Positions 13,281 to 56,588 of a DNA stretch of 64,000 nucleotides are shown here, in pieces (position 1 is the stretch's first letter; the number at the start of each line of letters is the position of its first letter). Where the stretch lies: assembly GCF_000177235.2 (NCBI RefSeq), contig NC_014829.1, positions 3,534,001-3,598,000 on the forward strand, written 5' to 3'. The notes below the pieces were generated by a model. The model searched no databases, was not told the DNA's origin, and saw nothing but the letters and a program-made list of their open reading frames with translations. A program made the position numbers and the translations under genes. The stretch is from Evansella cellulosilytica DSM 2522 (lineage in GTDB: Bacteria; Bacillota; Bacilli; Bacillales; Salisediminibacteriaceae).

Positions 13281-13347
13281 TTTGACCACCTCCTTAATCA
13301 TATTGTCGGCAAATCATGTAAAGCATAAACACATGAATAGTCTTCAC

Positions 13348-38403: not shown

Positions 38404-38427
38404 TTCATCCACCCCTCTCATGTTGTT

Positions 38428-38640: not shown

Positions 38641-38659
38641 GGTATTATGATCCTCTTCC

Positions 38660-40285: not shown

Positions 40286-40297
40286 CGTCACCCTCCA

Positions 40298-40906
40298 TTA
40301 AATCACTTTTAATTCTTTCAAATGTGCTACAACTTTATTAACTGAATCATCTATCAGTTCCTTGTCTGTTTCAATTACAACCTCAGCATTTTCTGGTTCC
40401 TCATACGGTGCACTAATTCCCGTGAATGCTGGAATTTCCCCATCACGCGCTTTCTTATAAAGGCCTTTCGGGTCACGACGCTCGCATTCATCTAACGCAC
40501 ATTTTGTATAGACTTCATGAAACTCGCCGCTCTCTAGAAGGCTTCTCACTAATTGGCGGTCTTCTCGATAAGGAGAAATAAAAGCAGTTAATACAACAAT
40601 ACCTGCATCAACGAATAGCTTAGATACCTCTCCAATTCTTCGAATATTTTCTTTTCGATCGTCAGGTTGAAAACCGAGCCCTTTATTTAAACCATGGCGA
40701 ATGTTATCCCCATCAAGGACATACGTTCTAATACCCTGATCATGCAGCTTTTTCTCCACTGCGTTCGCCAATGTTGATTTTCCTGAACCCGATAGTCCAG
40801 TAAACCATACGACACTTCCTTTATGATTATTGAGCGATTGGCGATCTTCCTTTGAAACCGTCGTGTTATGCCAATGAATGTTTTCAACTTTTTCCTGTTG
40901 GCTCAT
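40298..40906 (-). CDS. cysC: Adenylylsulfate kinase
   Basis: 202 residues with P-loop GLSGSGKS and the family motifs [10 protein letters not shown] and FISPYREDR. It phosphorylates APS to PAPS. The start ATG overlaps the sat stop (ATGA). The CysH in this operon looks like an APS reductase, so PAPS may serve other sulfation or be a bypass. Confidence 0.94.
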
Positions 40907-42042
40907 ACCGTCACCTTCATTCCACGTATCAACACTTGAACAACCTCATGTCGACTAAACTCTGGTGGTGGTGTTTCTCCATTTTTGAGCATTTCTCTCA
41001 CTTTTGTTCCAGATAAGATGACACGATCTTCTTTACTATGTGGACACGTTTTCGTCGATGTCATATTACCGCATTTTTTACAGAAGAAGCTATGCTCAAA
41101 GAACAACGGTGTTATACCTAACTCTTCCTGTGTGAAATGATTAAATATGAGCTGCGCATCGTAAGTACCGTAATAATCACCTACACCTGCATGATCTCTA
41201 CCTACAATAAAATGCGTGCAACCGTAATTTTTTCTGACTAGTGAATGAAATATCGCCTCTCTAGGCCCTGCGTACCTCATCGATGCTGGGAAAACTGCTA
41301 AAAATACTCTATCAGCTGGGTAGTAGTTTTCTAGTAACACTTCGTAACTTTCCATCCGTACATCTGCAGGAATATCATCCGCCTTCGTTTCACCTACTAG
41401 TGGGTTTAAAAATAACCCATCTACAATTTCTAAAGCCGTTTTTTGAATATACTCATGTGCACGATGAACTGGATTACGTGTTTGAAATCCAACAACTGTT
41501 TTCCAACCACGATTTTCGAATGTTTTACGCGTCTCTATTGGTGTTAAGTAATATGTCGCAAACGACTCCTTCTTCGGAACCTTTACCAACGTTATTTGCC
41601 CAGCTGCATAAACATTACCTCTATCATAGAGCTTCTTTACACCTGGATGTGCCGTTTCTGTTGTTTTATACACATGGTCGGCTTCTTCCAATTTATTCGG
41701 GGTAAAAAGCTCAGATAACTCTATTATGCCATAAATAGTACCCTCATAGGATAACTTTGTTTTTTGACCAACTTTCAAACTATTTGCCGTTTCTTCTGAG
41801 ATTGGTAAAGTAATAGGAATACTCCACACGGTCCCATCCGCCAACCTCATATTTTGAACAACGGATGTATAATCTGCTTCACTCATAAATCCTTTTAGAG
41901 GACTGTATGCCCCATTGGCGATTAGTTCCAAATCTGAAAGTGCTGTTCTATCAATCTCTATCGTTTGAAAAACATCTGAATAATCATATTGCTCATTTAT
42001 GCGATGAATAAGTGTTCCTCCGTGCGGTTGACTCAAAGTCAT
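40903..42042 (-). CDS. sat: Sulfate adenylyltransferase
   Basis: 379 residues from the ATG after GAGGGG; a longer start at 42081 overlaps cysH. Motifs: [15 protein letters not shown] (the HxxH-type site), [12 protein letters not shown], and a CX2C/CX8-type cysteine cluster near [16 protein letters not shown], as in dissimilatory-like Sat. It activates sulfate with ATP to APS. It lies between cysH and cysC. Confidence 0.95.
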
Positions 42043-42061
42043 GCTTATTTCCCCTCTCATG

Positions 42062-42781
42062 TTATTTTGTGTGTAATCCACATTCGGTTTTATTACTCCC
42101 GGACCACCTTCCAGCCCTTAAGTCCTCACCTTCCTCTACTGGGAAAGTGCATTTGCTACAGCCAATACTTGGGTAGCCTTGATCATGTAGCTTATTGTAC
42201 GGCAAGTTAAACAAATGAATATACTCCCAGATTTCATCCCATGTCCAATGGATAAGTGGACATATTTTGATAGATTGAAACTTATCATCCTTATTTACAA
42301 ATTGCGTATTTGCTCTCGTCGGTGATTGTTCTCGTCTTAACCCCGACAACCATGCTTTACTCCCTGACAATACAGACTTTAGCGGAGTATTTTTTCGGAG
42401 CTTACAGCAAAGGTCAGGATTTTTTATCCATAATTCATTACCATATTGATCTGCTTGTTCCTCTAAAGTTATTTCTGGCTGTTTCAACTCAATACGAAGA
42501 CTCGGATACTTTTTCTTCATCTGTTCAATTAATTCATACGTTTCATCGAAATGTACGTTCGTATCAAGAAATACGACCTTTGCATCCTTCTTTACTTTAC
42601 TAATGAGATCTATGAGAACGATCCCTTCTGCACCAAAGCTACACGCATAGACTAAATCATCGTTAAATTGCTCATATGCCCATTTGATAACATGCAACGC
42701 GTCATTTTTCATTTTCGCGTTAAGATCAGCGTAATCCTGATCTTTCAAATTTTCATAGAGTAATACTTGATTACTCATCAT
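42062..42781 (-). CDS. cysH: APS (phospho)adenylylsulfate reductase
   Basis: 239 residues. Cys125-Cys126, Cys208 and Cys211 (CCKLRK, CSKC) are the [4Fe-4S] ligands of APS-reducing CysH proteins, and ECGLH (Cys234) is the active-site tail. It reduces APS/PAPS to sulfite with thioredoxin. Its ATG overlaps the cysP stop, so the two are coupled. Confidence 0.93.
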
Positions 42782-43863
42782 TAAATTCCTCCTCCTTCGT
42801 TATGCACCGACCTTTTTTCTTCCTTCGTTGACCTGTATAAACTAATTGAGCCAAAGGTTGTGACAAAAATACTTATTACGATAATCATCATATACGGATT
42901 AGGCATTAATAGTGTATGTATTAAGCTAAAAGAGACAACGAGTGACATCACAGGTGAGACAATCCACACTTTTATGATTTTTTGAATAACTGATTTCTGC
43001 CATAATTGAAATCCAGTTTCTGCTGTACCGACCCCAACAATAGCGGAAGTAGTTGCTTGCGTTAACGGTACTGGGATTCCAAAAATGGATGCAACAATGA
43101 CTAAAGCTCCACCTGTTCCTGAGACCGCAATACCTTGTAGCTTTGATAATTTTGTGATTTTCTTTCCATTTGTTTCTAACACTGCCCCACCTAGTAAGAG
43201 AGCACCAAGTGCTACAAACAGTGCACCTAACCATATTCCTAAAGTTTCTTCCATGATGCCAGCCCCTATTAATGGGCCAATTGCATTTGCTACATTGTTC
43301 ATCCCTGCTGAAAAAGCTTCCACAAATCCAGTAAGTATAAGTAGTATAGAAAGAATTTTCTTCCACTTTGCTCCTTTCAGTCTTCCTGGATATTTTTTTT
43401 CGAAGTAACTAATCATTTTCTGAATGCAATAAGCTATTACAAATGCTGCGATTGGAACAATAAGCCAAAAGGAGACAATAAATAGAACATTATTAACAAA
43501 TAAAGATTGGAAAGCTACGCCAACTCCTACAATAGATCCGATTGTCACTTCACTAGTCGATAGGGGAATCCCGATCATATTTGCGATAAATAAAGTAAGG
43601 GTTGCTGAGAATAAAATAATGAGCACTACCTCAACGGACAAGATATTTGCTGGGATTATTCCTTCCCCTACTGTTTTTACCACTTGCCCACTTCCAATAA
43701 CAGCACCTAAAAAAGCACCTAATCCAACTAATAGTAGCGCTAATCTTTTCTTTTTTATTGCTCCTGCCCCATATGCAGGACCCATCGTCGCAGCCGCTCC
43801 GCTAGCACCAATATTCATAGCAAAAAATAACGCAATAATGATCGCAACGTATGTCAAAAACAT
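42781..43863 (-). CDS. cysP: Sulfate permease, PiT family
   Basis: 360 residues from the ATG at 43863, which gives the N-terminus seen in B. subtilis CysP (MFLTYVAII...FFAMNIGASGAA). The TTG at 43884 has a poor RBS spacing. About ten membrane segments, two PiT-type signature halves (SGAAATMGPAYGAGAIKKK near the start and NNVANAIGPLIGAG in the middle). It takes up sulfate. It is the first gene of the S-box cys operon. Confidence 0.92.
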   Translation of the reverse strand: MFLTYVAIIIALFFAMNIGASGAAATMGPAYGAGAIKKKRLALLLVGLGAFLGAVIGSGQVVKTVGEGIIPANILSVEVVLIILFSATLTLFIANMIGIPLSTSEVTIGSIVGVGVAFQSLFVNNVLFIVSFWLIVPIAAFVIAYCIQKMISYFEKKYPGRLKGAKWKKILSILLILTGFVEAFSAGMNNVANAIGPLIGAGIMEETLGIWLGALFVALGALLLGGAVLETNGKKITKLSKLQGIAVSGTGGALVIVASIFGIPVPLTQATTSAIVGVGTAETGFQLWQKSVIQKIIKVWIVSPVMSLVVSFSLIHTLLMPNPYMMIIVISIFVTTFGSISLYRSTKEEKRSVHNEGGGI

Positions 43864-43946
43864 TTCCCACAACCCTTTCTTCAAACCACCAACCTACAAA
43901 ACCTATAATTCTTGTAATTCCTACATGTTTACTATGAATTAAACGA

Positions 43947-43975
43947 AATAAAAAAGACCTCTTATGCAGAGGTCG
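43947..43975 (-). terminator. Riboswitch terminator of cys operon
   Basis: GACCTCT and AGAGGTC arms, followed on the minus strand by TTTTTTATTT. Confidence 0.88.
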
Positions 43976-43998
43976 ATATTCTCGTTAACTGAGCAAAT

Positions 43999-44106
43999 CG
44001 TCCCCTCATCTATCAGAAAATCATCTGCTGGAGTTAGCACCTTTGAATTCAATGGTTGCCGAGGTCTCTATGGGCCAGTTCCCTAAACCTCTCTTGATAA
44101 GGTTCA
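43999..44106 (-). promoter_or_regulatory. SAM-I riboswitch of cysP operon
   Basis: Minus strand: GAACCTTATCAAGAGAGG, AGGGAACTGGCCC, CTCGGCAACC and closing GATGAGGGGAC. This is the third S-box of the window; AdoMet would stop sulfate uptake and reduction. Confidence 0.95.
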
Positions 44107-44128
44107 TATTATAAAAATTCTTTGTTAC

Positions 44129-44158
44129 ATCATGCCATACATAAAGATATATAGTCAA
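44129..44158 (-). promoter_or_regulatory. SigmaA promoter of cys operon
   Basis: Minus strand: TTGACT (44153-44158), 18-bp spacer, CATGAT (44129-44134), 23 bases before the riboswitch. Confidence 0.72.
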
Positions 44159-44210
44159 TAGGAATTTCAAAATTTTTAATTCATATACATTAAATTGTGT
44201 AAAAGAGGCG

Positions 44211-44252
44211 AGGATGACTCAAAAGGTTGCATTTTTCCTTTTCAGTCATCCT
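44211..44252 (-). terminator. Covarying hairpin after catabolic operon
   Basis: Arms AGGATGACTCAAAAGG and CCTTTTCAGTCATCCTT (one-base offset). It is the GGATGACT member of the family, 44 bases after the aldehyde dehydrogenase stop. Confidence 0.75.
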
Positions 44253-44295
44253 TACTATTACTTTTTCGAGACATCCACGTCTACACGTTGAGGCA

Positions 44296-45741
44296 CTATA
44301 GCCATTTTTGTAATTGAAAGCAGACTACCTTTGGCTCTGTCATCGCTTCAATTGCCGATCTTACACCTTCTCTTCCTAGGCCAGATCCTTTAATACCTCC
44401 AAATGGCATTGCATCAATACGATAATCGCTGCTATCATTTACCATAATGCCCCCTACTGCCATGTTTTGAATCGTATAGTAGGCGTTGTCAATATTATTA
44501 GTAAATACCCCTGCCTGCAACCCATAGTTTACGCTGTTAGAACGTGCTACGGCCTCCTCTACATTATTAACAGGAAATACAAGAACGACTGGTCCAAATA
44601 TTTCTTCCTTTGCTATTTTCGCACCTTCTGGAACATCCGTTAATATTGTAGGTTCATAAAATGCACCTGTTCTTTTTCCCCCTGTGTGGAGCTTTGCTCC
44701 TCTGTACAGTGCATCATTCACCCACGCTTCTACTCGCTTTGCTTCACGTTCATTTATAAGCGGCCCCATATCCGTAGACTCTAGTAGTTTATCACCGACT
44801 TTTAGTTTCGTCGTTTCTTCTACTAGTGCCGTTAAAAATTGATTATAGCTTTCTTTTTCTACATAGATTCGTTGAACGCCGATACAATTTTGCCCTACTG
44901 CAGAAAATGCCCCTGAGACACATGCTGCAACTGCTTCAGATTGATTCGCATCATTTAGAACGATGACGGGCGAATTTGATCCTAGTTCCATATTCACTTT
45001 CTTTAAGCCAGCTTGCTTTGCAATTTTCTCTCCTGTTTCAAGTCCGCCAGTAAAAGATATCATTTTTACATTTGGATGAGTGATGAGTGTTTCACCTATG
45101 TCCTTACCAGAACCGGTGAGGACCGATAAATACCCTTTAGGTAAGCCTGATTTTACAAATGCTTCCGCTAACAATAGTGCACTCAAAGGTGTAACAGAAG
45201 CAGGCTTTACAACAATCGGATTTCCTGCTGCAATAGCGGGACCAATTTTGTGTGCAACTAAATTTAATGGGTCGTTAAAGGGCGTTATCGCACCTATCAC
45301 ACCAATTGGAAAACGATAATGATAACCCACTCGGTTTTCGCTACCTTCCATTTGATCAAAATTAATCGTTTCGCCATTCACTCTTCTTGCTTCTTCTGCA
45401 CTTATTTTAATCGTCTGGATTGTGCGCTTTACTTCTCCTCTTGCCTCCTTGATTGTTTTACTGCCTTCCGTAGCAATTGTCCTCGCGTATTTTTCTTTAT
45501 TTTCTTCAATGTAGTTAGCAACATTATTAAGAATGCGAATTCTTTCGTGCGTGGGCCAAGCTGCATGATTTTTCAAGACAGAATGCCCTTTATCAATTGC
45601 CAATAGCATTTGTTTATTAGAGGCTAAAGGAACTTTTGCAATGATCTCGTTGTTTTCTGGATTATAAACATGAAAGAATTCCTCAGCATCCACCCAGTCT
45701 CCAGCAATGAGCATCTTTTCCACCAATACATCTGTATGCAT
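44296..45741 (-). CDS. NAD(P)-dependent aldehyde dehydrogenase
   Basis: 481 residues. Catalytic cysteine in VGQNC, general-base glutamate in NMELGSNSP, cofactor motif FTGGLETGEKIA. It oxidises an aldehyde to an acid. It is the last gene of the operon with an ectoine-hydrolase-like protein, so a semialdehyde such as aspartate semialdehyde, the role of DoeC in Halomonas, is a plausible substrate (inference). AAGGAGGG precedes the ATG. Confidence 0.85.
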   Translation of the reverse strand: MHTDVLVEKMLIAGDWVDAEEFFHVYNPENNEIIAKVPLASNKQMLLAIDKGHSVLKNHAAWPTHERIRILNNVANYIEENKEKYARTIATEGSKTIKEARGEVKRTIQTIKISAEEARRVNGETINFDQMEGSENRVGYHYRFPIGVIGAITPFNDPLNLVAHKIGPAIAAGNPIVVKPASVTPLSALLLAEAFVKSGLPKGYLSVLTGSGKDIGETLITHPNVKMISFTGGLETGEKIAKQAGLKKVNMELGSNSPVIVLNDANQSEAVAACVSGAFSAVGQNCIGVQRIYVEKESYNQFLTALVEETTKLKVGDKLLESTDMGPLINEREAKRVEAWVNDALYRGAKLHTGGKRTGAFYEPTILTDVPEGAKIAKEEIFGPVVLVFPVNNVEEAVARSNSVNYGLQAGVFTNNIDNAYYTIQNMAVGGIMVNDSSDYRIDAMPFGGIKGSGLGREGVRSAIEAMTEPKVVCFQLQKWL

Positions 45742-45773
45742 CTTGCACCACCCTCCTTAAATTTCCTAATCCA

Positions 45774-46811
45774 TTATTGATTTTTAAAATGAAGTAAATC
45801 AATCAATAATGAATAGGCTGTTTCAGTTAAGCCAGCTCCAGGCCCCGTTAGCATAATTGAACCCGCTAAATCGCATTCATATACAATCGCATTTGTTGCT
45901 CCAGAAACACCAGCAAGTGGGTCGTTAATTTCGATTAATTCAGGTTGTACTGATGCCTTTACTTGCCCATTCTCATCACCTTTTATTTTGGCAATTAATC
46001 GCCACACTTTGTTTTCTCGTAACGCCTCACTCACCTTCTCATTCGTAATATTACGGATGCCAACACACGGGATATCATTTGCTTTTAACTCCGTATTCAT
46101 CACGTAGTTAGCCAAAATTGTCGCCTTGTACCTGGCATCAAAACCATCTACATCACTTGTTGGATCTGCTTCTGCATAACCAAGGTTTTGTGCCTTTTTT
46201 AAAGCTTCCTCATAAGAACAACCTTTTTCCATTTCTGTAATCATATAATTTGTAGTTCCATTTAGAATACCTCTTATTTCCTTAATTTTATTGCCAGCAA
46301 GTGTGACTAACGGTAACCTTAAAGCTGGTGTTCCACTCATCACAGTTCCTTCAAATCCCCAGTACGCATTATTTTCTTTTGCCAATTTGCTCAGTTCTCT
46401 GTATGCTAATGCTACTGGCCCCTTATTTGTGGTAACAACACTTTTTCCCTCTTTAAATGCAGCTTTGCAGTGGTCAATTGCTGGTTGCCCCGTTTCCACG
46501 TCAGTAAAGGTTACTTCTACAATTACATCTGCATTACTCTTCTTGATCGTCTCTAGACTATCCATCCCCCTTACAAGACCACTCTCATCTGAATACGCTT
46601 TCAAGTTTCCTGTCTTATTTATGGTTTCAATCAATCTTGATACATTAAGACCATTAGGGTTGTAGAGAGAACCTTTCATTACATCCGAAACCGCGACTAC
46701 TTCAAAATCCAAATCATATTTTTTAAAGAATTCATCTTTCTTCTCATACAGTAATTTTGCTAAAGTTTGACCGACTCCACCAAAACCAATAAAGGCAATT
46801 TTAGTTGTCAT
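45774..46811 (-). CDS. Homoserine-dehydrogenase-like protein without ACT domain
   Basis: 345 residues. Rossmann motif IAFIGFGGVGQTLA, catalytic region EGTVMSGTPALR, NGTTNYM and AEADPTSDVDGFDARYK. It lacks the C-terminal ACT regulatory domain of the biosynthetic enzyme, which fits a catabolic or paralogous role: interconversion of aspartate semialdehyde and homoserine. It overlaps the M20 gene by 11 bases, so it is co-translated in the operon. Confidence 0.85.
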   Translation of the reverse strand: MTTKIAFIGFGGVGQTLAKLLYEKKDEFFKKYDLDFEVVAVSDVMKGSLYNPNGLNVSRLIETINKTGNLKAYSDESGLVRGMDSLETIKKSNADVIVEVTFTDVETGQPAIDHCKAAFKEGKSVVTTNKGPVALAYRELSKLAKENNAYWGFEGTVMSGTPALRLPLVTLAGNKIKEIRGILNGTTNYMITEMEKGCSYEEALKKAQNLGYAEADPTSDVDGFDARYKATILANYVMNTELKANDIPCVGIRNITNEKVSEALRENKVWRLIAKIKGDENGQVKASVQPELIEINDPLAGVSGATNAIVYECDLAGSIMLTGPGAGLTETAYSLLIDLLHFKNQ

Positions 46812-48009
46812 CCGCTTCCCTCCTTACCTCAGTATTTATTAAATCGCAAGCACACGCTGTCAATACTGCCACGCCTATCGGAAGTGCTTTTTCATTTAAT
46901 TGAAATTGAGGTGTATGCAGCTGAAATTCTTTCTCCTCAAATGCACTACCTAAGAAAAACATAGATCCAGGAACAACAGCTGTCATATGTCCGAAATCTT
47001 CACCACCCATACCAAACGGTTCCTCAATTATCTTCATGTCAGGATACAACCTTTTTGCATTTTTCTTCATGAGTCTTGTAATAGCAGCATCATTATATAG
47101 GGCTGGTTCCCCTCGTTGAATGGTCAAATCAAAGGTTCCACCAAAAGCTTCACAAATTTTCGCTACCGCTTCTAATTCCTTGATGAGTTGAGATCGAATA
47201 GTAGATTTATAGGATCTGATCGTACCACCAATGGTTACTTTTTCAGGTATAACATTTTTAGATCCTTCTGCCTTTAACTCCCCGACACTAATCGTTCCAA
47301 CGTGTAATGGGTCTATTTTTCTGCTTATCAAACTATATATCCCTTGTAAAACAAAGCTACTAATCCATATTGGATCCACTGTTTGATGCGGATAGCCACC
47401 ATGACCACCCTTTCCTGAAATCGTTAATTCAAAATTATCGATATTCGCCATGCTAGGACCTTCATTTACTTGTATTTCCCCTACTTTTCTCCAAGGACAA
47501 ACATGCACGCTAATTATTGCATCAACTTCATCCAATATTCCGTTCTTGATAAAGTAAGGTGCTCCTGTTAGCCCTTCATCGTTTGCACTTTCTTCTGCAG
47601 GCTGGAAAATAAATTTTATCGTGCCTTTCAAATTGTCATCCTTCATCTCTTCGTTTAATAACTTCGATGCTCCTAGTAGCATCGACATATGTGCATCATG
47701 CCCACAAGCATGCATCACGTTCAAATTTTTAGAAGCATATTTCAAATTTGTTTTCTCTTGTATAGGAAGGGCATCCATATCTGCACGAAGAGCAATAACA
47801 CGCCCAGGACCATTTGATATCGTAGCTACTATTCCATGTTCTGCAATATTTGTTTCAATGTCAGTGATGCCAAAAGATTTTAGCACTCGCACAATATAGT
47901 CGCTCGTGTTAGACTCTTCAAAACTTAATTCGGGATATTGGTGAAAATAACGACGCCATTCTATTAATTCTTGCTTTAAATTTTCTGCGCACTTTGCAAT
48001 AGTTTTCAA
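46801..48009 (-). CDS. M20-family amidohydrolase (N-acyl amino acid deacylase type)
   Basis: 402 residues with the M20D landmarks RADMDALPIQE, MHACGHDAHM (metal ligands), PAEE and GGEDFG. The family removes acyl groups from N-acyl amino acids. In this operon it is a good candidate to deacetylate N-acetyl-2,4-diaminobutyrate from ectoine opening; Proteobacteria use the unrelated DoeB/EutE (aspartoacylase fold). The start is TTG after GGGAGGG. Substrate assignment is inference. Confidence 0.83.
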   Translation of the reverse strand: MKTIAKCAENLKQELIEWRRYFHQYPELSFEESNTSDYIVRVLKSFGITDIETNIAEHGIVATISNGPGRVIALRADMDALPIQEKTNLKYASKNLNVMHACGHDAHMSMLLGASKLLNEEMKDDNLKGTIKFIFQPAEESANDEGLTGAPYFIKNGILDEVDAIISVHVCPWRKVGEIQVNEGPSMANIDNFELTISGKGGHGGYPHQTVDPIWISSFVLQGIYSLISRKIDPLHVGTISVGELKAEGSKNVIPEKVTIGGTIRSYKSTIRSQLIKELEAVAKICEAFGGTFDLTIQRGEPALYNDAAITRLMKKNAKRLYPDMKIIEEPFGMGGEDFGHMTAVVPGSMFFLGSAFEEKEFQLHTPQFQLNEKALPIGVAVLTACACDLINTEVRREADDN

Positions 48010-48034
48010 CAGATACCCTCCCGTTCTATTATTT

Positions 48035-49222
48035 TCATAATTTGGATGGTAAAGATTGAAAGGCTTGATCTAAATCACCAATTAAGTCTTCAATATCTTC
48101 TATCCCAGCTGAGTAACGAATTAAGCCTTCTGGAATCCCCATTGCCGCTCTCTCTTCAGGTGTACATTCCACATGACTCGTCGTTCGTGCTGGACCAACG
48201 ATTGTCTCCACTGCACCTAGATTTGCAGCTCTGTTGGCGAACTGTAGCTTCGGTAAGAAATGACGAACTGTATCCATGCCACCTTTGACCGAAAAACTTA
48301 ACATGCCTCCAAATCCGCGCATCTGTTTCTTTGCAATATCATGCCCTATATGCTCCTCTAAACCCGGATAAAATACATCTTCAACGACATCTACAGTTTT
48401 TAAATATTTTGCAATGGCAAGTGCATTTTCATTTTGTTTATCAATTCTAAGCTTCAATGTTTTCATTCCTCTTAACAGTAAATAAGCAGCCATCGGATCC
48501 ATTGTGGCGCCATTTATTTCACGATAATGATAGATAGCTTCAACTAAATCCTTTGAGCCGCAGACAGCTCCACCTAATGCATCTGCATGCCCTCCGAGAA
48601 ATTTCGTTGCACTATGAATGACGAGATCTGCACCTAATGCAAGTGGGTTTTGATTAATTGGTGTTGCAAACGTGTTATCTACAATGACAGTCGCTCCTAC
48701 TTTTTTTCCTGCCTTCGCCATTCTTTCAATATCAGTAATTTTAACAGTAGGGTTTGTTGGAGTTTCCAAATAGAGCACTTTGCACCCCTTCTCAACTTCT
48801 TTTTCAAGCGCTTCGTGATCACCTGTGTCACATAAAACGACTTCTACCTTTTTCTTTGGTAAAAATTCAGTAAAAATTTTATTCGTTCCCCCATACGTAT
48901 CTTTTATTGAAACAATTCGATCTCCAGGGAATAACAATGTATCTAAAGTGTTACTAATCGCTGCCATTCCTGTTGAAAAGCTTGTAACAGCATCTGCATC
49001 CTCTAGATTTCTTATTTTTTCCTCAAAAGCCTCAACAGTGGGATTTGTATTTCGCCCATAAATATGCCCCTTTTTATTTCCGATTGCTACTTCATACCAT
49101 TCATCCATGTCTTCATACCCATAGGAAACGCTGTGCACAACTGGCACTTGTGTTGCACCAAAAGCTAGATAGTCTCTCTCGCCAGCCCAAATAGATCGAG
49201 TACCCATTTTGGAATCTCTCAT
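48035..49222 (-). CDS. Trans-sulfuration-type PLP enzyme (third copy in window)
   Basis: 395 residues from the ATG after AAAGGAGG. PLP lysine in HSATKFLGGHADAL, with RNTNPTVEAFE and NRAANLGAVETIVGPA. It is related to cystathionine gamma-synthase and methionine gamma-lyase, but lies in the ectoine-type operon, away from the met genes. It may act on a gamma-substituted C4 amino acid such as a diaminobutyrate or homoserine derivative. No transaminase of the DoeD type is visible nearby. Exact reaction unknown. Confidence 0.82.
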   Translation of the reverse strand: MRDSKMGTRSIWAGERDYLAFGATQVPVVHSVSYGYEDMDEWYEVAIGNKKGHIYGRNTNPTVEAFEEKIRNLEDADAVTSFSTGMAAISNTLDTLLFPGDRIVSIKDTYGGTNKIFTEFLPKKKVEVVLCDTGDHEALEKEVEKGCKVLYLETPTNPTVKITDIERMAKAGKKVGATVIVDNTFATPINQNPLALGADLVIHSATKFLGGHADALGGAVCGSKDLVEAIYHYREINGATMDPMAAYLLLRGMKTLKLRIDKQNENALAIAKYLKTVDVVEDVFYPGLEEHIGHDIAKKQMRGFGGMLSFSVKGGMDTVRHFLPKLQFANRAANLGAVETIVGPARTTSHVECTPEERAAMGIPEGLIRYSAGIEDIEDLIGDLDQAFQSLPSKL

Positions 49223-49307
49223 ATTCTCTACTCCTCCTTTAATGATCATCATTCATTATGCTTGAAGGCCAAAAAGCTCTTCACCACACTTTTTGGCACC
49301 TTCAAAG

Positions 49308-50516
49308 CTAACTTATTTTTCCGTCATGCTGATTCATCATAAATGGTGGATGGATAATCATATCCCTCGGGAAATTTGTAAACGTCTCGCACCCATTTTC
49401 TGTGACTCTAAATGATTCACTTATTTCAATGCCATAATTGTTAAACCATAACGCAGGAATTAAATGAAAAGTCATGTTCGGCTCTAACACTGTATTGTCA
49501 CCTTTTCGAATACTTGCAGTATGCTCTCCCCAATCTGGTGGATAATTTAAACCTATTGAATAACCTAATCTTGCTTCTTTTTCATATCCACGTTTTGAGA
49601 TACTGTTTCTCCAAACATTTTCTAGCTCCCCACAAGTTACACCTGGCTTAACCGCATTTAATACTTCATTTACTCCTTCAACAACTACTGGACTAATATT
49701 TTTTAGCTGTTCAGAAGTAGAACCTACAGAAATAGTACGTGCAATCGGTACATGATACCGTTTATAGCATCCTGCCAACTCAATAATAACTGTGTCACCC
49801 TCCTGGTAAGCTCTATCAGACCATGTTAAATGTGGTATAGAAGTATTCCTTCCTGAAGGTAACAGAGGTACGATCGCTGGATAATCACCTCCATACTCAT
49901 CGGTACCCGATATCAGTTGAGAGTATATTTGCGCTGCTGTATCACATTCTCTTACTCCCGGCTTAACACTTTGTACCGCCTTATACATTGTTTCTTCCGC
50001 TATTTTGCCAGCTTTTTTCATATATTCTATTTCTTGATCTGATTTTACGAGGCGAACATAATTAACTAGAAGTCCTGCATCTTTAAATGTCGCGTCTGGT
50101 AGATTCGTTTTTAATACGTCGTAAGCTTTTGCGGAGAAATAGTAATTATCCATTTCTACACCTATATATTTCTTCCTATGTCCCATTTGCTCTAACTTGT
50201 GAGCGATATACTCCATTGGGTGATAAAAGGATGATTGTACGTAATAATCAGGATAGGAAATCACATTATCATCGTGTATCCAAGTCGTAGCTCTTGCCCC
50301 ATTAGCATCTTGATATCTTCCAATCCATACCGGCTGGAGATCCTCCAGCGAAACGACAAGCATTTGATGCACATAAAACGACCAAGCGTCATAACCTGAA
50401 AGATAATTTATATTAGCAGGATCTGTTACTAGTAAAACCTCAACCCCCGATTTAACCATTCTCTCTTTCGTTTTCCGTAACCGATCTTGATATTCCGCCA
50501 TCTCAAACGGTAGCAA
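49308..50516 (-). CDS. doeA: M24-fold ectoine hydrolase (DoeA/EutD-like)
   Basis: 402 residues from a TTG 5 bases after GGAGGAG, which gives a family-typical length and an N-terminus LPFEMAEYQDRL; the ATG at 50567 lacks an RBS. TDPANINYLSGYDAWSFYVHQ and FHLIPALWFNNYGIEISES resemble DoeA/EutD. Where metal-dependent prolidases have two aspartates, this protein has IELAGCYKRYHVPIARTI, keeping the glutamate that EutD is reported to use and lacking metal ligands. It would open the ectoine ring to N-acetyl-diaminobutyrate. Creatinase-like or prolidase activity is the alternative. Confidence 0.75.
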   Translation of the reverse strand: MLPFEMAEYQDRLRKTKERMVKSGVEVLLVTDPANINYLSGYDAWSFYVHQMLVVSLEDLQPVWIGRYQDANGARATTWIHDDNVISYPDYYVQSSFYHPMEYIAHKLEQMGHRKKYIGVEMDNYYFSAKAYDVLKTNLPDATFKDAGLLVNYVRLVKSDQEIEYMKKAGKIAEETMYKAVQSVKPGVRECDTAAQIYSQLISGTDEYGGDYPAIVPLLPSGRNTSIPHLTWSDRAYQEGDTVIIELAGCYKRYHVPIARTISVGSTSEQLKNISPVVVEGVNEVLNAVKPGVTCGELENVWRNSISKRGYEKEARLGYSIGLNYPPDWGEHTASIRKGDNTVLEPNMTFHLIPALWFNNYGIEISESFRVTENGCETFTNFPRDMIIHPPFMMNQHDGKIS

Positions 50517-50673
50517 TGAGGCTCCTCCTCCCTTTATTAAACTTATATCTTTTGTTACTATTACCATATTAAAAAATCACGTTATTCGTAATGTTCATTT
50601 TGTATGAACTTTTCAAATGTACTTTTATACAATTTTTAGACAGAAGTGTGTAAAATCGCTTAAAATAAGTAAC

Positions 50674-50716
50674 GAAGCGCTATAAAATGTAGAAAATCTA
50701 CCTTTTATAGCGCTTC
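50674..50716 (-). terminator. Terminator of the pucR-like gene
   Basis: Perfect 14-bp arms GAAGCGCTATAAAA and TTTTATAGCGCTTC, 15 bases after the PucR-like stop. Confidence 0.7.
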
Positions 50717-50731
50717 ACATTGTTAGATTTT

Positions 50732-52411
50732 TTAACTGAATTTTTTTAACATCCATAACCTGACACTTAACTCCAATAAAAATAAGTCATCAGAATCGAC
50801 TAGGGACAAGCCTGTCAGTGATTCAATATTTCTTAATCGATGAAGCAATGATTGCCTGTGTAAATTTAATGCTCGTGCGGTTTGACTCACATTCCCCTTA
50901 TACTTATTGTAAATAATAAACGTGTATATTAAATCTGTTTGTCTTTTTTCATCATAATCTAATAATGGTTGTAGCGTATCTTTTACAATTGTTGCTATTG
51001 CATCTTCTTGAGAAATTGCCATGAGCAAACGATTTATTCTCGTATCGCTAAAAAATGTTCTCTCCCCTAACCCTTTCTGCTGCTTACCAATTTTTAACGC
51101 TGTCTTTGCCTCTTCATAACTATTATGAAAAGCATAATGTCCGTCTTTATGGGTAGCAATGCCCCAAGAAAAAGTGATATGAGATAATAACTCATATAAC
51201 CTTTCTTCAATGTTGTCTAAAAATTGATTCGCTGTTTCCATGTATGGTTGGTTATCGGCTTCTAAAAATATAATAACTTCATCCTCATCAAAAGTCGTCA
51301 TCGTCCTTCTTCTAAGATTTTTACCGGCTCGCGTGATTTCTTTTTGTAAATAATAGTTCCTACTTTGTAGTGAAGAACTACCTAGACTCTCCCCCTGCAC
51401 TTTAAGCGTTTTTTTTCGATCGTTATGGGTCATTTCTCCAACTAAGCAAAGATACGGCCTTGCTAAATCATAGCCTAATAACTGAGCCTTTGATATCAAC
51501 TGCGTTGTCACCTCAGAATATTTTTGTGCTAGCTCTAAAATGAAATTATCTTTCAAACGAACTTCTGTTAGCTCGACTGCATTTTCCTTTACAAAATAAA
51601 GTGCACAAGCTGTTAAACTATGATCGAGTACATTCATCACAAAAGTCGTGAGCTTTTCACGGTCGACCGGGTGAAAGAGCAAGCTCCCTTGATTGTGATG
51701 ATTATTAACAATTGGAAGTAGAAAAAAAATGTGATTATGAACTAAGTATTCTTTCATTTGATGAAATAGTGGATGCTCGCTATATAATACATCCGAAGAC
51801 GGTATTTGTTGAACGGTACCTTTTTTCTCCCCATTAAAAACTGCTAGCAATTCTTCGTTGAATTTTTTGTTTGCCCTCAATTGCCCAGAGTGATCAATGA
51901 TCGCTATAGGCATGTTTATATGCTTATATAGGATGCTTGATATATCTTCAAGCCCTTTCTCATGGAGTACACAATTAATGAGTTCTTGTCTCACGTCTTC
52001 TGCTTGCTGCCGTTCGCCCTGCTTTTCTTTATGGATCTCTTCAAGAACGATTTGGAGTATTTCACCAAACCTTACTTCCCAAGGGATTTCAATTAACACA
52101 AGGTGATGTTTATTTGCGAGCTCTATGACACGATCTGGAATATCATTAATGTACCTACCGGTTGCAAATGCAAGTACAGATGCTCCTGAATCGATAATGT
52201 CGTTCACGAACTTCTCGAGTAGTAAATTGTCCCCTTCACAACCAATCCCTGTACTTAGCACAAATTCATTCTTTCTCACAAAGTTTTCCACAGGCACTTC
52301 AATGACAGAAATCCATTCAACCATTCTACTTTTTAACCATTCTTTGCCGGTTCTTACTTTTGACGTCTTCATAATTGGCAGCTGGACGATATCCTTTACA
52401 GATAAACTCAT
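50732..52411 (-). CDS. PucR-family transcriptional regulator
   Basis: 559 residues. An N-terminal PucR-type domain (VKDIVQLPIMKTSKVRTG ...FVLSTGIG), a middle sensory part, a GGDEF-like segment, and a C-terminal helix-turn-helix (GNVSQTARALNLHRQSLLHRL). These regulators usually activate catabolic genes in response to a nitrogen compound. It lies directly upstream of, and on the same strand as, the doeA-like operon, separated by a terminator. It is the likely regulator; the ligand may be an ectoine breakdown product. Confidence 0.87.
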   Translation of the reverse strand: MSLSVKDIVQLPIMKTSKVRTGKEWLKSRMVEWISVIEVPVENFVRKNEFVLSTGIGCEGDNLLLEKFVNDIIDSGASVLAFATGRYINDIPDRVIELANKHHLVLIEIPWEVRFGEILQIVLEEIHKEKQGERQQAEDVRQELINCVLHEKGLEDISSILYKHINMPIAIIDHSGQLRANKKFNEELLAVFNGEKKGTVQQIPSSDVLYSEHPLFHQMKEYLVHNHIFFLLPIVNNHHNQGSLLFHPVDREKLTTFVMNVLDHSLTACALYFVKENAVELTEVRLKDNFILELAQKYSEVTTQLISKAQLLGYDLARPYLCLVGEMTHNDRKKTLKVQGESLGSSSLQSRNYYLQKEITRAGKNLRRRTMTTFDEDEVIIFLEADNQPYMETANQFLDNIEERLYELLSHITFSWGIATHKDGHYAFHNSYEEAKTALKIGKQQKGLGERTFFSDTRINRLLMAISQEDAIATIVKDTLQPLLDYDEKRQTDLIYTFIIYNKYKGNVSQTARALNLHRQSLLHRLRNIESLTGLSLVDSDDLFLLELSVRLWMLKKFS

Positions 52412-52719
52412 TGAATCCCCCCCATTAAAGCACCTTTAGCTTTTTGTCTACAGGTTGTGATTACTCATATATTCCTCACATAAGACTTCTAGTAAACTTA
52501 ATTATATGTATTCATTAACAACCTGTTTTCATGTTTACTTTATATTGAGCAGGGTGAGGGAGTGGTTAACTCAATGGTTGAATGCTAGTTTTTGAATTCA
52601 CTTCTCAGTGCGTAGCTTTTACTAAAAGTGGGGTGCTAGTAAGGGGATTATGTGGGCACGGTGAGTGTACCATTGCCAGGTCTTCACATATTTGATGGGA
52701 CAGTTTATTAAAGCATTGC

Positions 52720-52935
52720 GGATGGTGACCTTGCTATCTTAGCTTCGGCTATTCTTTTTGGAGATCAAGGGAGGATGGCTGCTCCATCTTACCTTCTGCT
52801 TCTATTTTTTATGCTCAGGGGCAGATGGCGCTGCTCCATCTTACCTTCGGCTCCTAATTTTTTTGCTCAAGGGCAGATGGCAGCCCCCCCATCTTATCTT
52901 CACACACTTTCTATTTGATCAAAGGCAGATGACCC
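52720..52935. repeat. Tandem repeat, period about 50-52 bp
   Basis: Units begin near 52763, 52813, 52865 and 52917, with a partial one before. Consensus GCTCAAGGGCAGATGGC...GCTCCATCTTACCTTCGGCT then a T-run. Two more units are at 28353. Confidence 0.78.
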
Positions 52936-53083
52936 GCCTAACAGATGACACTCACCCAATTCCTTCCTTTAATCTAACAAAAAAAGATGAGGCTAAGGTA
53001 AGCCTCACCTCAGAATCTCATCATGTCTAATCCTCATACACTGATAAAGTATGAGCAACTATTTCAGCACCAATAAATTCAAT

Positions 53084-53174
53084 GACAATGTCTCCTTTCG
53101 TTGCTCGACTACCATCAGATACCAACTCATAGTAGCGTTTCAAAAGATTGCATCGACTCCGCTTCACTGCATTG
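53084..53174. repeat. ACAATG...CATTG inverted repeat, third copy
   Basis: TTTCGTTGCTCGACTACC...CTCATAGTAG...TTTCAAAAGATTGCATCGACT aligns with 17437-17521. Confidence 0.6.
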
Positions 53175-53199
53175 AAGGACTAAAAAAGGTAAATATCTA

Positions 53200-53267
53200 G
53201 GACACTGAAAAAGTGAAAGAACATAAGGCCACTGAAAAAGTAAATGAACATCACTTTTTCAGTGTCC
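53200..53267 (-). terminator. Hairpin with duplicated left arm after SGNH gene
   Basis: GGACACTGAAAAAGTG at 53200 and again, with GGCC, at 53227; one right arm CACTTTTTCAGTGTCC at 53252-53267. It pairs fully with the outer arm. Confidence 0.75.
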
Positions 53268-53281
53268 TTTTTATATAAGTA

Positions 53282-53896
53282 CTAACGAATTGATTTTAAC
53301 CATGTATGTGCTATTAATTTATCTCCTTCTGGCGTCATGTGAACACCGTCCGTCGTTAAAGCTCCATGTGATTTTGTTCTTAATGCTTCGATAAAAACAT
53401 AATGCGTTGGAACGATAATACAATCATATTTTTCAACTAACCGATGAACTGCATGTACATAAGGCTTTAGAAGCTCATTTCCTTTTGACATTACATCTTC
53501 CTCTATAATAGTCGGTTCCATTAAAATAATCTTTGCAGCTGTTTTATTTTTCACTTGATCCAAGAGGTCTTCATATATGTTTGTAAATGCCTCAGGATAT
53601 ATTTGAGAAATACTTGGTTGGTCTAGCTGTCTCCACACATCATTGATTCCAATTGAAACGGAAACCCAATCTGGTTGGATGTCGATAACATCTTCTTGCC
53701 AACGATCGGCTAAATCTATTACACGGTCACCATTCTCCCCTTTGTTTACTATTTTGATATGCATGCCAGCTTTTATTAATTCATCGCTGATCATTTTAAC
53801 GTATCCAAAACCTAGACCATTAGGATCTTCATTTCTTCCGGCATGTGTTATACTATCTCCGATAAAAACTATACGATCACCTTGTTTTAGCTTCAT
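53282..53896 (-). CDS. SGNH/GDSL hydrolase
   Basis: 204 residues, all four SGNH blocks present: GDSIT (nucleophile Ser), ENGDR (Gly), GINDVW (Asn), DGVHMTPEG (Asp/His). No signal peptide, so probably cytosolic. Relatives are acyl- or acetyl-esterases, including sugar acetylesterases. It lies 22 bases downstream of the AEC transporter on the same strand, so the two may be co-transcribed. Substrate unknown. Confidence 0.85.
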   Translation of the reverse strand: MKLKQGDRIVFIGDSITHAGRNEDPNGLGFGYVKMISDELIKAGMHIKIVNKGENGDRVIDLADRWQEDVIDIQPDWVSVSIGINDVWRQLDQPSISQIYPEAFTNIYEDLLDQVKNKTAAKIILMEPTIIEEDVMSKGNELLKPYVHAVHRLVEKYDCIIVPTHYVFIEALRTKSHGALTTDGVHMTPEGDKLIAHTWLKSIR

Positions 53897-53918
53897 TCAT
53901 GTAACCTCCTAAAGTGTA

Positions 53919-54815
53919 TTATTGCAACAATAACAGTAAAATTGTGATGGTTAAGATACTTAATAAAGTCGAAATTAAAGTTACACTTGATACAAGCTTA
54001 GGTTTGGCGTTAAACTCTATCGCATACATCACAATCGTTGCCGCTGAAGGCATTGCTGCCGAAACAATTAACACTTTTGCTAATAATGGATCCATTGGCA
54101 AAACTAACGTGATAAAAAAAGCGATAAGTGGAGAAATAAATAACCTAACAGTAACAGCATAGGAAATGTGCCCCCACTGAAACTGCCCTAACTTAATTTT
54201 AGCCAGCTGCATTCCTAAAATGATCATTACGGTTGGAATAGTTGCTTCTGCAATAATGTCTATAGTTAAAAATAAGTTTCCTGGTAATTGAAAAGGTACG
54301 TATCTTAATAGTAAAGCAAGTAGCACAGCATAAGTAGCGGGCATGTGTAATACAGCCATAACGGAGCTCTTCATTCCTGCGCTTCCTTTCGATGCGTAGT
54401 ACACACCAAAAACGTTCATGATGATTGATTGCAAAACCATATAAGATACTGCAAAGGCAAAGCCTACTTCTCCATAAGCAAATAAAATGATAGGGGCTCC
54501 ATAGTTACCTGCATTTTTAAATGCAGTTGATAAGATTAACCCACTCTCTAGTTCTACAGGGTACTTCATCAAGCGACAATATACCTTATTAATGAGAATA
54601 AGTGAAAATAATAAAACCAATGCAAAAATAATCATATAAACATATTGAATGTTTAATTCGGCAGTATAAAAAGTCCGAAAAACAAGTGCTGGTACCATTA
54701 AATAAATAGCTACCGTTGATATCGGTTTAATCTCAACCTTCTTCCACTTTTGAACTACGAATCCGAGTAAAAATACGAGCAAAACTGGTAATACAACTGA
54801 TGTAAAAATATTCAT
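53919..54815 (-). CDS. AEC-family transporter
   Basis: 298 residues, about ten membrane segments, from an ATG 6 bases after AGGAG (the ATG two codons upstream is too close). The sequence (LGFVVQKWKKVEIKPIS; VLIVSAAMPSAATIVMYA) matches the auxin efflux carrier/malate permease family, which moves organic acids or related solutes. First gene of a possible pair with the SGNH hydrolase. Confidence 0.85.
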   Translation of the reverse strand: MNIFTSVVLPVLLVFLLGFVVQKWKKVEIKPISTVAIYLMVPALVFRTFYTAELNIQYVYMIIFALVLLFSLILINKVYCRLMKYPVELESGLILSTAFKNAGNYGAPIILFAYGEVGFAFAVSYMVLQSIIMNVFGVYYASKGSAGMKSSVMAVLHMPATYAVLLALLLRYVPFQLPGNLFLTIDIIAEATIPTVMIILGMQLAKIKLGQFQWGHISYAVTVRLFISPLIAFFITLVLPMDPLLAKVLIVSAAMPSAATIVMYAIEFNAKPKLVSSVTLISTLLSILTITILLLLLQ

Positions 54816-54947
54816 ATGCATCTCCTAAATTACAAAACTTAAACAAATAGTTTAGTAGCTTCCTTACATATGAAGTATAGCGAATGTAGTTCGCTTGCAC
54901 AATCTAGAAACTTATTACAATAGCATGGCTTTTTTCTAAAAAAACAA

Positions 54948-54969
54948 CAACTGCCACAGTGGGCAGTTG
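54948..54969 (-). terminator. Terminator of glycosyltransferase gene
   Basis: CAACTGCC and GGCAGTTG arms followed on the minus strand by TTGTTTTTTT. Confidence 0.8.
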
Positions 54970-54973
54970 CAAA

Positions 54974-56224
54974 TTAATTAAGTATTTTTTCACTATCATC
55001 CTTCTTTGGATGAATGACTGTGTCATCACTCTCTTCCACTAGTTCTTTATAAGTAGCAATTAGCTGCATCATCGAATAATCTTTTTTATAAATGTTTTTT
55101 ACGTAGCGCTCTGTTCGTTGTGCAAACCGTTTCCCGAGTGATTGGTTTTCTAATAGTTCTATTATACTTTTTATAAATTGATCGTCTGTTTCACATATGA
55201 ATGCATCCTTTTCGTCAGTTAAACCAATGCTCTCGTTAACAACATGCGTTGTCACGATTGGGCACTTGTGAACGGCTGCATGCAAAGCCGCATATTGGTA
55301 ACCACTTCCAAAATCCGCGGGGTTAACATACGCGAAAGCATCAGAATAAAATTGATGGGAGTCTTTTACATTGTTGTTTATCTTTACCCCCTCTATTTTT
55401 TCAAGTGTTTCTATTTTTTTTGGTAAATGAGTACCAACAATCCAACATTCAAGATCTTCTATATTCCGTTTTAATGGTGTAAATATATTTTTTACTAACC
55501 GATTCGCTGCTTCCATTTCTGCTTGATTATTCATCATACATGAGAATACAATTACTTTTCTATTGCTAGTATGCTCTTCACACTCGGTCTCTTCCAAATA
55601 TGTAGGAATGACTTTAATTTTTCCATAGTCTACTTTTTTAAGAATTTGTTCTTTATCTTTATTGGAATGAACCATTCCTGCTTTAAAATTCGAATAGACA
55701 CTATTTTCTATGTTACAAACTCTCCTAAATTGCTCCTTGTAATAAAGCAATTTCAATTTGTTTTGTGTTTTCTCGATATGCTGCTTATAATATGTGCTAT
55801 CTACATCGATATAATCTACTAAAACAGGGATATCGATTTGTAAGTCGATAATGTTATGTGCAAGTCTCCCTTGGATTTGTATCAAATCATAGTTAGCTTC
55901 ATCAATAAGTTCTTTTATGACTGTTTTGAGCTCTGGTATATGGAATGCGGAAAAACGAAAGGGGGTGCCATTAAACAAACTCATTATTTTTTGTCGGATT
56001 CTTTTTTTATTTAGAGATGTGCTCCACACGTTTCCTGTACTCGTATTGAATAGTTTTGCTAGCACTTTGTCACTTGTTAGCTTATATAGGTGTTGTTCAT
56101 GACAAAAAAGACAATCGACTTCTATACCTGCTTGTACTAAGCCTTCGATTTGCTGAACTGCTCGAATTTGATCTGCCGTTCCGGGAGTGTACGGCACCTT
56201 TTCCGTTATGTATAACACTTTCAT
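54974..56224 (-). CDS. Glycosyltransferase (GT4-like)
   Basis: 416 residues from the ATG in MKVLYITEKVPYTPGTADQIR, with GGTGATGGGGTGAG upstream; the ORF opens earlier without an RBS. It has a GT-B layout, with HAAVHKCPIVTTHVVNESIGL as the C-terminal nucleotide-sugar region and no clear EX7E. It is monocistronic and not in a recognisable polysaccharide cluster. Acceptor and sugar unknown. Confidence 0.72.
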   Translation of the reverse strand: MKVLYITEKVPYTPGTADQIRAVQQIEGLVQAGIEVDCLFCHEQHLYKLTSDKVLAKLFNTSTGNVWSTSLNKKRIRQKIMSLFNGTPFRFSAFHIPELKTVIKELIDEANYDLIQIQGRLAHNIIDLQIDIPVLVDYIDVDSTYYKQHIEKTQNKLKLLYYKEQFRRVCNIENSVYSNFKAGMVHSNKDKEQILKKVDYGKIKVIPTYLEETECEEHTSNRKVIVFSCMMNNQAEMEAANRLVKNIFTPLKRNIEDLECWIVGTHLPKKIETLEKIEGVKINNNVKDSHQFYSDAFAYVNPADFGSGYQYAALHAAVHKCPIVTTHVVNESIGLTDEKDAFICETDDQFIKSIIELLENQSLGKRFAQRTERYVKNIYKKDYSMMQLIATYKELVEESDDTVIHPKKDDSEKILN

Positions 56225-56410
56225 AATTAGACTCACCCCATCACCTATTTTTGTTCCATATAAAGAACACATGATGAGTATATATGTTATTATCGCATAT
56301 TGTAAACGATTATATATTACTGTTTAACGATGTTAATCAACACTTATCTCCTTAAAACTCCATAAATCTCCACATATCTCTTAATTAACTTATATATAGA
56401 ACGATAGATA

Positions 56411-56543
56411 ATAAGAAAAACTTAAAACAAGCTTGGAGGAATTCGTTTTAAGTCTCTTAGAGGCGGTGAAGAAATAATGCCACATGTCTTTAAAGTTGGA
56501 GTGATTACTCTTCTCACTACTACGCGTGCCATCTTTTCCACCT
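56411..56543. repeat. Composite repeat (terminator plus 80-bp palindrome), copy F
   Basis: A degenerate AAAACTTAAAACAAGCTT hairpin (56411-56460) is followed by GCGGTGAAGAAATAATGCC...CACTACTACGCGTGCCATCTTTTCCACC, a diverged palindrome. It lies in the 364-bp gap 56225-56588, which has no gene. Confidence 0.6.
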
Positions 56544-56588
56544 CAAATTTCTTTCTTGTCTTCTAAAAAAAAACACTTAATACTAGCG

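Follow-up and report, generated by a model that had tools for sequence, protein, structure and literature searches.

A candidate ectoine-degradation operon of Evansella cellulosilytica in which a lyase-family enzyme and a homoserine dehydrogenase may replace the transaminase

We analyzed a 64,000-nucleotide stretch of the Evansella cellulosilytica DSM 2522 genome (contig NC_014829.1, positions 3,534,001 to 3,598,000; the whole stretch is called the window), in which five closely spaced genes follow a gene for a PucR-type regulator (Table 1). On balance, we lean towards reading these genes as a PucR-controlled operon for ectoine degradation, in which a pyridoxal phosphate (PLP) enzyme of the Cys/Met lyase family and a homoserine dehydrogenase (HSD) stand in place of a transaminase. 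In the proposed route, an M24-fold protein would open ectoine to N-acetyl-2,4-diaminobutyrate, and an M20 protein, or another amidohydrolase in relatives without it, would take off the acetyl group. The PLP enzyme would split off ammonia from the gamma position of diaminobutyrate and add water to give homoserine, which would be oxidized by the HSD to aspartate semialdehyde and by an aldehyde dehydrogenase (ALDH) to aspartate. The PLP enzyme and the HSD together would replace the transaminase DoeD, and PucR would control the operon. We infer the substrates, products, reaction directions and PucR control in this scheme from the gene identities, conservation, co-occurrence and displacement described below.

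Results

Co-occurrence of the PLP enzyme with the M24 protein and the HSD

We searched 299 genomes of the order. The M24 protein is present in 85 (at E 1e-80), the PLP enzyme in 87 (at E 1e-120) and both in 83 (Fisher P ~3e-66, uncorrected for kinship). The only two M24 genomes without the PLP enzyme (G249 and G292) carry aminotransferases of different families in the M24 locus. One of them, in locus L071, is 440 amino acids long and matches NF005682 best, at 457 of the 510 bits needed; the other, in locus L091, scores above the cut-off of the gamma-aminobutyrate transaminase family NF005376. Both are class III enzymes, and we read the two loci as displacement of the PLP enzyme by an aminotransferase. 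Four genomes have the PLP enzyme without the M24 protein. In two of these (G185 and G278; loci L223 and L224, ~6560-13320), PLP enzyme, HSD, ALDH and permease genes stand behind a divergent regulator-like gene, and the stretch contains no M24 or M20 gene. The regulator-like protein has no NCBIfam match at 1e-20, and the permease matches NF008484 best (665 bits of 716 needed). These loci are perhaps stand-alone modules for some gamma-substituted amino acid. In the other two genomes (G192 and G241), the PLP enzyme stands alone.

Gene content was compared over 81 loci, consisting of the window and 80 loci of relatives, which account for 84 of the 98 M24 matches; the remaining 14 were not included. 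The gene set, for which the sequence-only reading had suggested a search among relatives, does recur: M24 protein and PLP enzyme lie together in 73 loci, 55 of which also contain HSD and ALDH. The operon arrangement is therefore not due to chance and represents a conserved gene set. In total, HSD is present in 55 loci, ALDH in 57 and full-length M20 in 44 (missing from 37, including locus L076, where an M20 fragment was counted as absence). HSD is always accompanied by the PLP enzyme and ALDH (none of the 55 HSD loci lacks the PLP enzyme), and ALDH without HSD is found solely in the aminotransferase loci L071 and L091. The other six loci without the PLP enzyme hold second M24 copies, and the PLP enzyme is encoded elsewhere in those genomes.

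With aspartate semialdehyde as the product of the PLP enzyme, the HSD would be superfluous; with 2-oxobutyrate as its sole product, there would be no need for either HSD or ALDH. Because the operon of the window contains both, homoserine is somewhat favored as the product in this lineage. Homoserine also fits the patterns of HSD presence and absence, as judged from the two displacement cases and the related genomes. The PLP enzyme-HSD-ALDH-permease loci of G185 and G278, and an Aminicenantes MAG in which PLP enzyme and HSD genes adjoin, also speak for homoserine. A precedent for the chemistry is canavanine gamma-lyase, which according to the consulted part of PMC10018355 converts canavanine to homoserine and hydroxyguanidine.

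Assignment of the M24 protein to ectoine

The M24 protein matches the solved structures of the ectoine hydrolase EutD/DoeA (6twj, 6twk/6yo9) at 407 bits; the next structures are prolidases at 123 bits, with a creatinase further down at 58 bits. In a tree of 46 rows, which includes 22 random Bacillales rows and, with one row each, four selected loci, but no creatinases, 41 EutD-like sequences are separated from five paralogues of the same genome with branch support 99/98, one of these paralogues having a very long branch. Nine DoeA rows fall within the EutD-like part. The protein thus groups with DoeA and not with prolidases, a placement that the sequence-only reading had left to a phylogeny; creatinases were compared by score only. 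The metal-ligand columns D/D/H/E/E are kept in four of the five other M24 paralogues of the genome that were examined (the fifth, L006, differs). In these columns the window protein and DoeA have common replacements: E, P, a lost His, I/M or similar, and S/T. Since the score against TIGR02993 (DoeA/EutD) is 488.2 bits, below the curated cut-off of 613, we regard the protein as related to DoeA without assigning it to the curated DoeA family. It is also below the cut-off of NF038259 (DoeA_2), with 260 of 575 bits.

Genes for the uptake and degradation of ectoine are linked to the M24 gene in relatives. Sampled proteins from these loci score above the curated cut-offs for EutB (L070) and EhuB (L103), and an EutC-type cyclodeaminase (L050) is above the cut-off of NF006141 and below that of the EutC family TIGR02992 (402.8 of 471.65 bits). 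A Priestia plasmid copy is annotated as PucR-eutB-pdxS-M24-cyclodeaminase-cystathionine gamma-synthase-M20-HSD-ALDH-MFS (major facilitator superfamily). We note that pdxS, encoding a PLP synthase subunit, lies inside this plasmid operon (L118, 4541-5425). The M24 tree, the active site and the linkage to eutB, eutC and ehu in relatives back the earlier claim of ectoine catabolism, and the operon very probably degrades ectoine. The best EutB match in the genome (NF005680) reaches 252.7 bits against a cut-off of 413, and 14 of 14 controls likewise match below the cut-off. Because the genome has no EutB above the cut-off, the substrate would seem to be ectoine rather than hydroxyectoine. No EutE/DoeB match (TIGR02994 at E 0.001) was found in the genome; one of 14 controls matched, and none was above the cut-off. 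The genome also has an ectoine synthase gene beside a gene for a 427-amino-acid protein readable by eye as ectB.

Family assignment of the PLP enzyme and its partner enzymes

The PLP enzyme scores 745.6 bits against NF006097 (PRK08249, 'cystathionine gamma-synthase family protein'; cut-off 600), and among solved structures it is nearest to methionine gamma-lyases (304 bits) and a cystathionine gamma-synthase (289 bits). Residues K217, Y65, R67, Y120, D192 and R379, the Schiff-base lysine and the residues for substrate and PLP, are conserved in 75 of 75 rows in the clade and in 11 of 11 rows outside it. One in-locus paralogue (L103_13115) was excluded from these counts, and the cystathionine gamma-synthase tree contains 14 random Bacillales rows besides the window. 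Four further long Cys_Met_Meta_PP matches exist in the genome, and the three compared are 30-39% identical to the PLP enzyme. The enzyme is likely to act on diaminobutyrate, free or acetylated, and we propose that it is a 2,4-diaminobutyrate gamma-lyase. The sequence-only reading had stated that the middle step has no standard enzyme here and that new chemistry may be involved; this holds in outline, and the Cys/Met lyase-family enzyme is our specific candidate for the step. Gly66 was considered as a signature of ectoine-linked PLP enzymes and rejected, since this position is Ser in 9 of 37 M24/DoeA-linked rows and Gly in 3 of 54 unlinked ones. The Cys/Met PLP family is matched twice more on the minus strand of the window, at 33878-34999 and 35052-36122.

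The operon HSD passes the cut-off of NF004912 (440 bits, cut-off 373) and has no ACT domain match in Pfam. Two further HSDs in the genome, of 463 and 430 amino acids, are both longer. The acidic residue of strand beta-2, considered as a guide to coenzyme preference, is D43 in 55 of 55 operon HSDs, but one of the longer paralogues shares it; K46 is present in 53 of 55. We propose that the operon HSD runs from homoserine to aspartate semialdehyde, and that the ALDH takes the DoeC role, converting aspartate semialdehyde to aspartate. The ALDH reached no cut-off among the 25 NCBIfam families listed of 45.

The M20 protein passes the cut-off of TIGR01891 (373.4 bits, cut-off 153.75) and is below that of NF038260 (DoeB2; 242.3 of 550 bits). 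We propose it as the N-acetyl-diaminobutyrate deacetylase. The existence of NF038260, an M20-type family, also means that the earlier statement that known clusters use an aspartoacylase-type deacetylase was too narrow. In a Bdellovibrionales metagenome-assembled genome (MAG; L148), the gene for an acetate-CoA ligase (above its cut-off) stands in a row with those for an M20 protein and the PLP enzyme, which fits acetate release.

The PLP enzyme in other phyla and on plasmids

A contig scan for the PLP enzyme confirmed at least 582 loci. Among the best 80 of these, neighbors within ~8 kb, where the contig allows, include M24/DoeA in 21 loci and only other pathway genes in 6, with none in 53 (neighbor calls at identity thresholds of 38-45%). 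DoeA and DoeB adjoin the PLP enzyme in Azoarcus, two Denitromonas, two Acetobacter and a Thioglobus MAG; DoeA with EhuB is near it in an actinobacterial MAG, and HSD adjoins it in an Aminicenantes MAG. Loci without pathway neighbors belong mostly to Bacteroidota or related bacteria. In five Bacteroidota loci (L156, L158, L160, L176 and L185), an M20 protein is encoded immediately before the PLP enzyme, and searches of the L156, L160 and L176 genomes found no EutD-like M24 protein. The function of the PLP family may therefore be wider than ectoine use.

A plasmid of Klebsiella variicola carries, in order, ehuABCD, a MocR-type regulator, doeA, doeB and the PLP enzyme. No DoeD-type transaminase is annotated in this locus, and an aldehyde dehydrogenase gene lies ~2.8 kb downstream on the opposite strand, past a transposase. 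A Pluralibacter plasmid has the same core. The Pluralibacter and Klebsiella plasmids (L119 and L126) carry clusters for ectoine uptake and degradation. In the plasmid collection, 33 records contain the PLP enzyme at E 1e-90, including 27 from Klebsiella and one from Pluralibacter. A haloarchaeal plasmid encodes an EutD-like protein (L120, 7986-9167) that is 54% identical to the window M24 protein, closer than the proteobacterial DoeA matches listed, and no such PLP enzyme directly adjoins it.

Weighing the homoserine route against alternatives

Several observations weigh against a homoserine-forming lyase devoted to ectoine. HSD is missing in 26 of the 81 loci, 12 of which, pucR aside, have just the M24 protein and the PLP enzyme. 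The loci are not independent of one another, and the displacement pattern comprises two cases only. In 31 genomes with the PLP enzyme and no full M20 in the locus, relatives of M20 encoded elsewhere are only 35-44% identical, which leaves deacetylation uncertain in these genomes; the step may fall to a general amidohydrolase, or an acetylated form may itself be a substrate of the PLP enzyme. A candidate canavanine gamma-lyase (L122, adjoining a B3/4 gene) is placed among the outside rows on a long branch. At E 1e-50, an EutD-like M24 protein was absent from 12 of 12 Bacteroidota genomes and one Comamonadaceae genome among 20 PLP-enzyme genomes searched, and present in the other seven of seven. 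Most of the 361 plasmid records with M24/DoeA at E 1e-60 have no close PLP enzyme, and linkage to the PLP enzyme is a minority among proteobacterial doeA genes. A Shinella stretch with eutB-eutC-doeA-doeB-ehu lacks both the PLP enzyme and a DoeD-type transaminase within 8 kb, so the absence of a nearby transaminase proves little. A further observation against homoserine comes from Denitromonas and Azoarcus.

In Denitromonas (L146, 9216-16074), genes for lipoyl-E3, AceE-type E1 and E2 lie downstream of doeA, doeB and the PLP enzyme gene in the same orientation. In Azoarcus (L143, 3784-11729), E3 follows doeA-doeB-PLP enzyme, and E1 and E2 lie nearby on the opposite strand. Open reading frame (ORF) calls in GC-rich loci are partly spurious and were re-read for these two loci only. 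The AceE-type E1 is a second copy, with 100, 97 and 87% identity in three genomes versus 55-56% to the other copy; in one of the three (G314), it lies on a different contig from the locus. Because a dedicated 2-oxoacid dehydrogenase is clustered with doeA-doeB-PLP enzyme, these loci, although their arrangements differ, suit an alternative in which gamma-elimination by the PLP enzyme turns diaminobutyrate into 2-oxobutyrate plus two ammonia, with propionyl-CoA or isoleucine as the continuation and HSD and ALDH otherwise engaged. Gamma-elimination to 2-oxobutyrate is ordinary in the Cys/Met PLP family. A stand-alone PLP enzyme is also near a 2-oxoacid/acetoin-dehydrogenase-like cluster in three Bacillota genomes; this support is weaker, because in one of them a butanediol-dehydrogenase-like gene (read by eye) points to ordinary acetoin utilization. 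However, 2-oxobutyrate leaves no role for the HSD and ALDH pair of 55 loci, and does not explain why HSD is absent where an aminotransferase replaces the PLP enzyme. We consider this alternative unlikely for the window, while giving it real weight.

Homoserine and 2-oxobutyrate are both derivable from one gamma-elimination intermediate, and the product of the PLP family may therefore vary by lineage. This leads to a wider proposition, for which we regard the case as evenly balanced: a PLP-dependent 2,4-diaminobutyrate gamma-lyase/hydrolase of the Cys/Met family, a previously unnamed activity, would open a homoserine route of ectoine degradation and extend across Bacillota and Pseudomonadota to at least one actinobacterial MAG. 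The fate of the common intermediate, homoserine or 2-oxobutyrate, would be set by lineage and mirrored by the adjoining HSD/ALDH or second 2-oxoacid dehydrogenase.

Two other roles for the PLP enzyme are much less probable. It could be transaminase-like and make aspartate semialdehyde directly, with the HSD diverting part of it to homoserine, since it occupies the place of an aminotransferase and, by position, would be the gene labelled 'atf' in the consulted part of PMC13188858. Yet its family consists of Cys/Met lyases and synthases, not aminotransferases, with the catalytic residues kept in 75 of 75 rows, and both aminotransferase loci are without HSD, which makes a transaminase highly doubtful. 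We give equally little credence to action on N-gamma-acetyl-diaminobutyrate, an analogue of O-acetylhomoserine, with release of acetamide and another task for M20. M20 is missing in many loci whose genomes have no close orthologue, and also in L223/L224, which may act on another substrate; against this, a dedicated deacetylase precedes the PLP enzyme in the doeA-doeB-PLP enzyme clusters, and N-alpha-acetyl-diaminobutyrate, a major ectoine hydrolase product in a methanotroph according to the consulted part of PMC7192451, has no free alpha-amino group. The least probable alternative is that the M24 protein is no ectoine hydrolase and that the operon serves to break down a different compound: the missed TIGR02993 cut-off, the lack of a transporter gene in the operon (ORF list and Pfam) and the occurrence of PLP-HSD-ALDH without M24 would agree with it, and the M24 tree, the active-site columns and the eutB, eutC and ehu linkage in relatives argue against it. 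Canavanine degradation as the task of the operon is disfavored, as no B3/4 gene is among the operon ORFs and the candidate lyase is distant.

Operon layout and surroundings

All six genes were found at the positions and on the strand given by the sequence-only reading, and their Pfam domains agree with the functions it had deduced. From pucR to the ALDH gene, the intergenic gaps are 164, 55, 25, -11 (an overlap) and 32 bases. The PucR-type protein is the probable regulator of the operon, and genes of its sequence cluster are present in 62 of the 81 M24 loci. The arm of the inverted repeat between pucR and the M24 gene occurs genome-wide only there, once per strand; the repeat may be a terminator or an operator.

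Table 1 Features of the candidate ectoine operon (window positions)
Feature	Position	Strand	Remarks
pucR, PucR-type regulator, 559 amino acids	50732..52411	-	Pfam PucR (108 bits), GGDEF_2 and HTH_30, all above cut-off
Inverted repeat, 41 bases, between pucR and M24 gene	50675..50715		13-base perfect outer arms
M24-fold ectoine-hydrolase-like protein (EutD/DoeA relative), 419 amino acids	49308..50567	-	Pfam Creatinase_N and Peptidase_M24 above cut-off
PLP-dependent Cys/Met lyase-family enzyme, 405 amino acids	48035..49252	-	NF006097/PRK08249; Pfam Cys_Met_Meta_PP above cut-off
M20 amidohydrolase, 402 amino acids	46801..48009	-	Pfam Peptidase_M20 and M20_dimer above cut-off
Homoserine dehydrogenase (HSD), 345 amino acids	45774..46811	-	Pfam NAD_binding_3 and Homoserine_dh above cut-off
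Aldehyde dehydrogenase (ALDH), 481 amino acids	44296..45741	-	Pfam Aldedh 526.6 bits, above cut-off

An S-adenosylmethionine (SAM) riboswitch (RF00162, 78.5 bits) lies at 44003-44103 on the same strand, 192 bases past the end of the ALDH gene, and is followed by permease and sulfate-assimilation-like genes, whose roles were read by eye. We take it as part of this next gene group and not of the operon. An Rfam search of window positions 38000-57000 found nothing else. The upstream GDSL lipase and Mem_trans genes are disfavored as operon members, as they are ~870 bases from pucR and their sequence clusters are represented in fewer than 4 of the 81 loci.

Discussion

The sequence-only reading had presented the cluster as new, and this could not be upheld. 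PMC13188858 (April 2026), consulted in part here and below, already describes pucR-eutBCD-atf with abgB-thrA-adh in Bacillales as tentative ectoine clusters; by position, 'atf' would be the PLP enzyme. The consulted part leaves the role of abgB-thrA-adh open, gives no biochemistry for the Bacillales clusters, and describes ectoine use by Gram-positive bacteria as being without biochemical proof; the word cystathionine is absent from the main text. Relative to print, the co-occurrence is new here, with the PLP enzyme in 83 of 85 M24 genomes and aminotransferases in the other two. Also new are the finding that no operon HSD stands without the PLP enzyme (0 of 55 loci) and the position of this enzyme after doeA-doeB in some loci of Klebsiella plasmids, Denitromonas and Azoarcus. 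Among the titles listed in searches of the openly licensed PMC literature, none describes a lyase step in ectoine breakdown, and we found no biochemistry of the operon enzymes; mentions of cystathionine in PMC7876524 refer to CBS domains. The proposal of a lyase and an HSD for the middle step is new as far as this literature shows.

In saline and soil habitats, ectoine serves as a nutrient. Should the lyase reading hold, a single misnamed gene would mark a second way of solving the pathway's central step, and part of the large 'cystathionine gamma-synthase family' group would gain a function. The step would need no 2-oxo-acid acceptor and would probably be irreversible. It would also avoid the reversible EctB transamination in an organism with ectB- and ectC-type genes, as here.

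Among known systems close to the operon, the clusters of PMC13188858 have a regulator of the same type, a EutD homologue, the PLP gene, an amidohydrolase, an HSD and an ALDH, and their order, judging from the text, is also the same. Those clusters have eutB and eutC, whereas the operon of the window has neither. The NCBIfam pair DoeA_2/DoeB2 (NF038259, NF038260) combines an ectoine hydrolase with a deacetylase that the window M20 protein resembles, but the window proteins are under both cut-offs. The canavanine gamma-lyase pathway of Pseudomonas canavaninivorans and Rhizobium resembles our proposal in that a PLP enzyme removes a gamma-substituent to give homoserine; its substrate is canavanine, and the putative lyase compared here (L122) is ~34% identical and outside the clade. 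The doeABCD/eutDE pathway of Halomonas, Ruegeria and methylotrophs shares ectoine hydrolase, deacetylation and an aldehyde dehydrogenase leading to aspartate. It uses the transaminase DoeD and the deacetylase DoeB/EutE, whereas the window has a Cys/Met lyase-family enzyme with an HSD, and an M20 protein.

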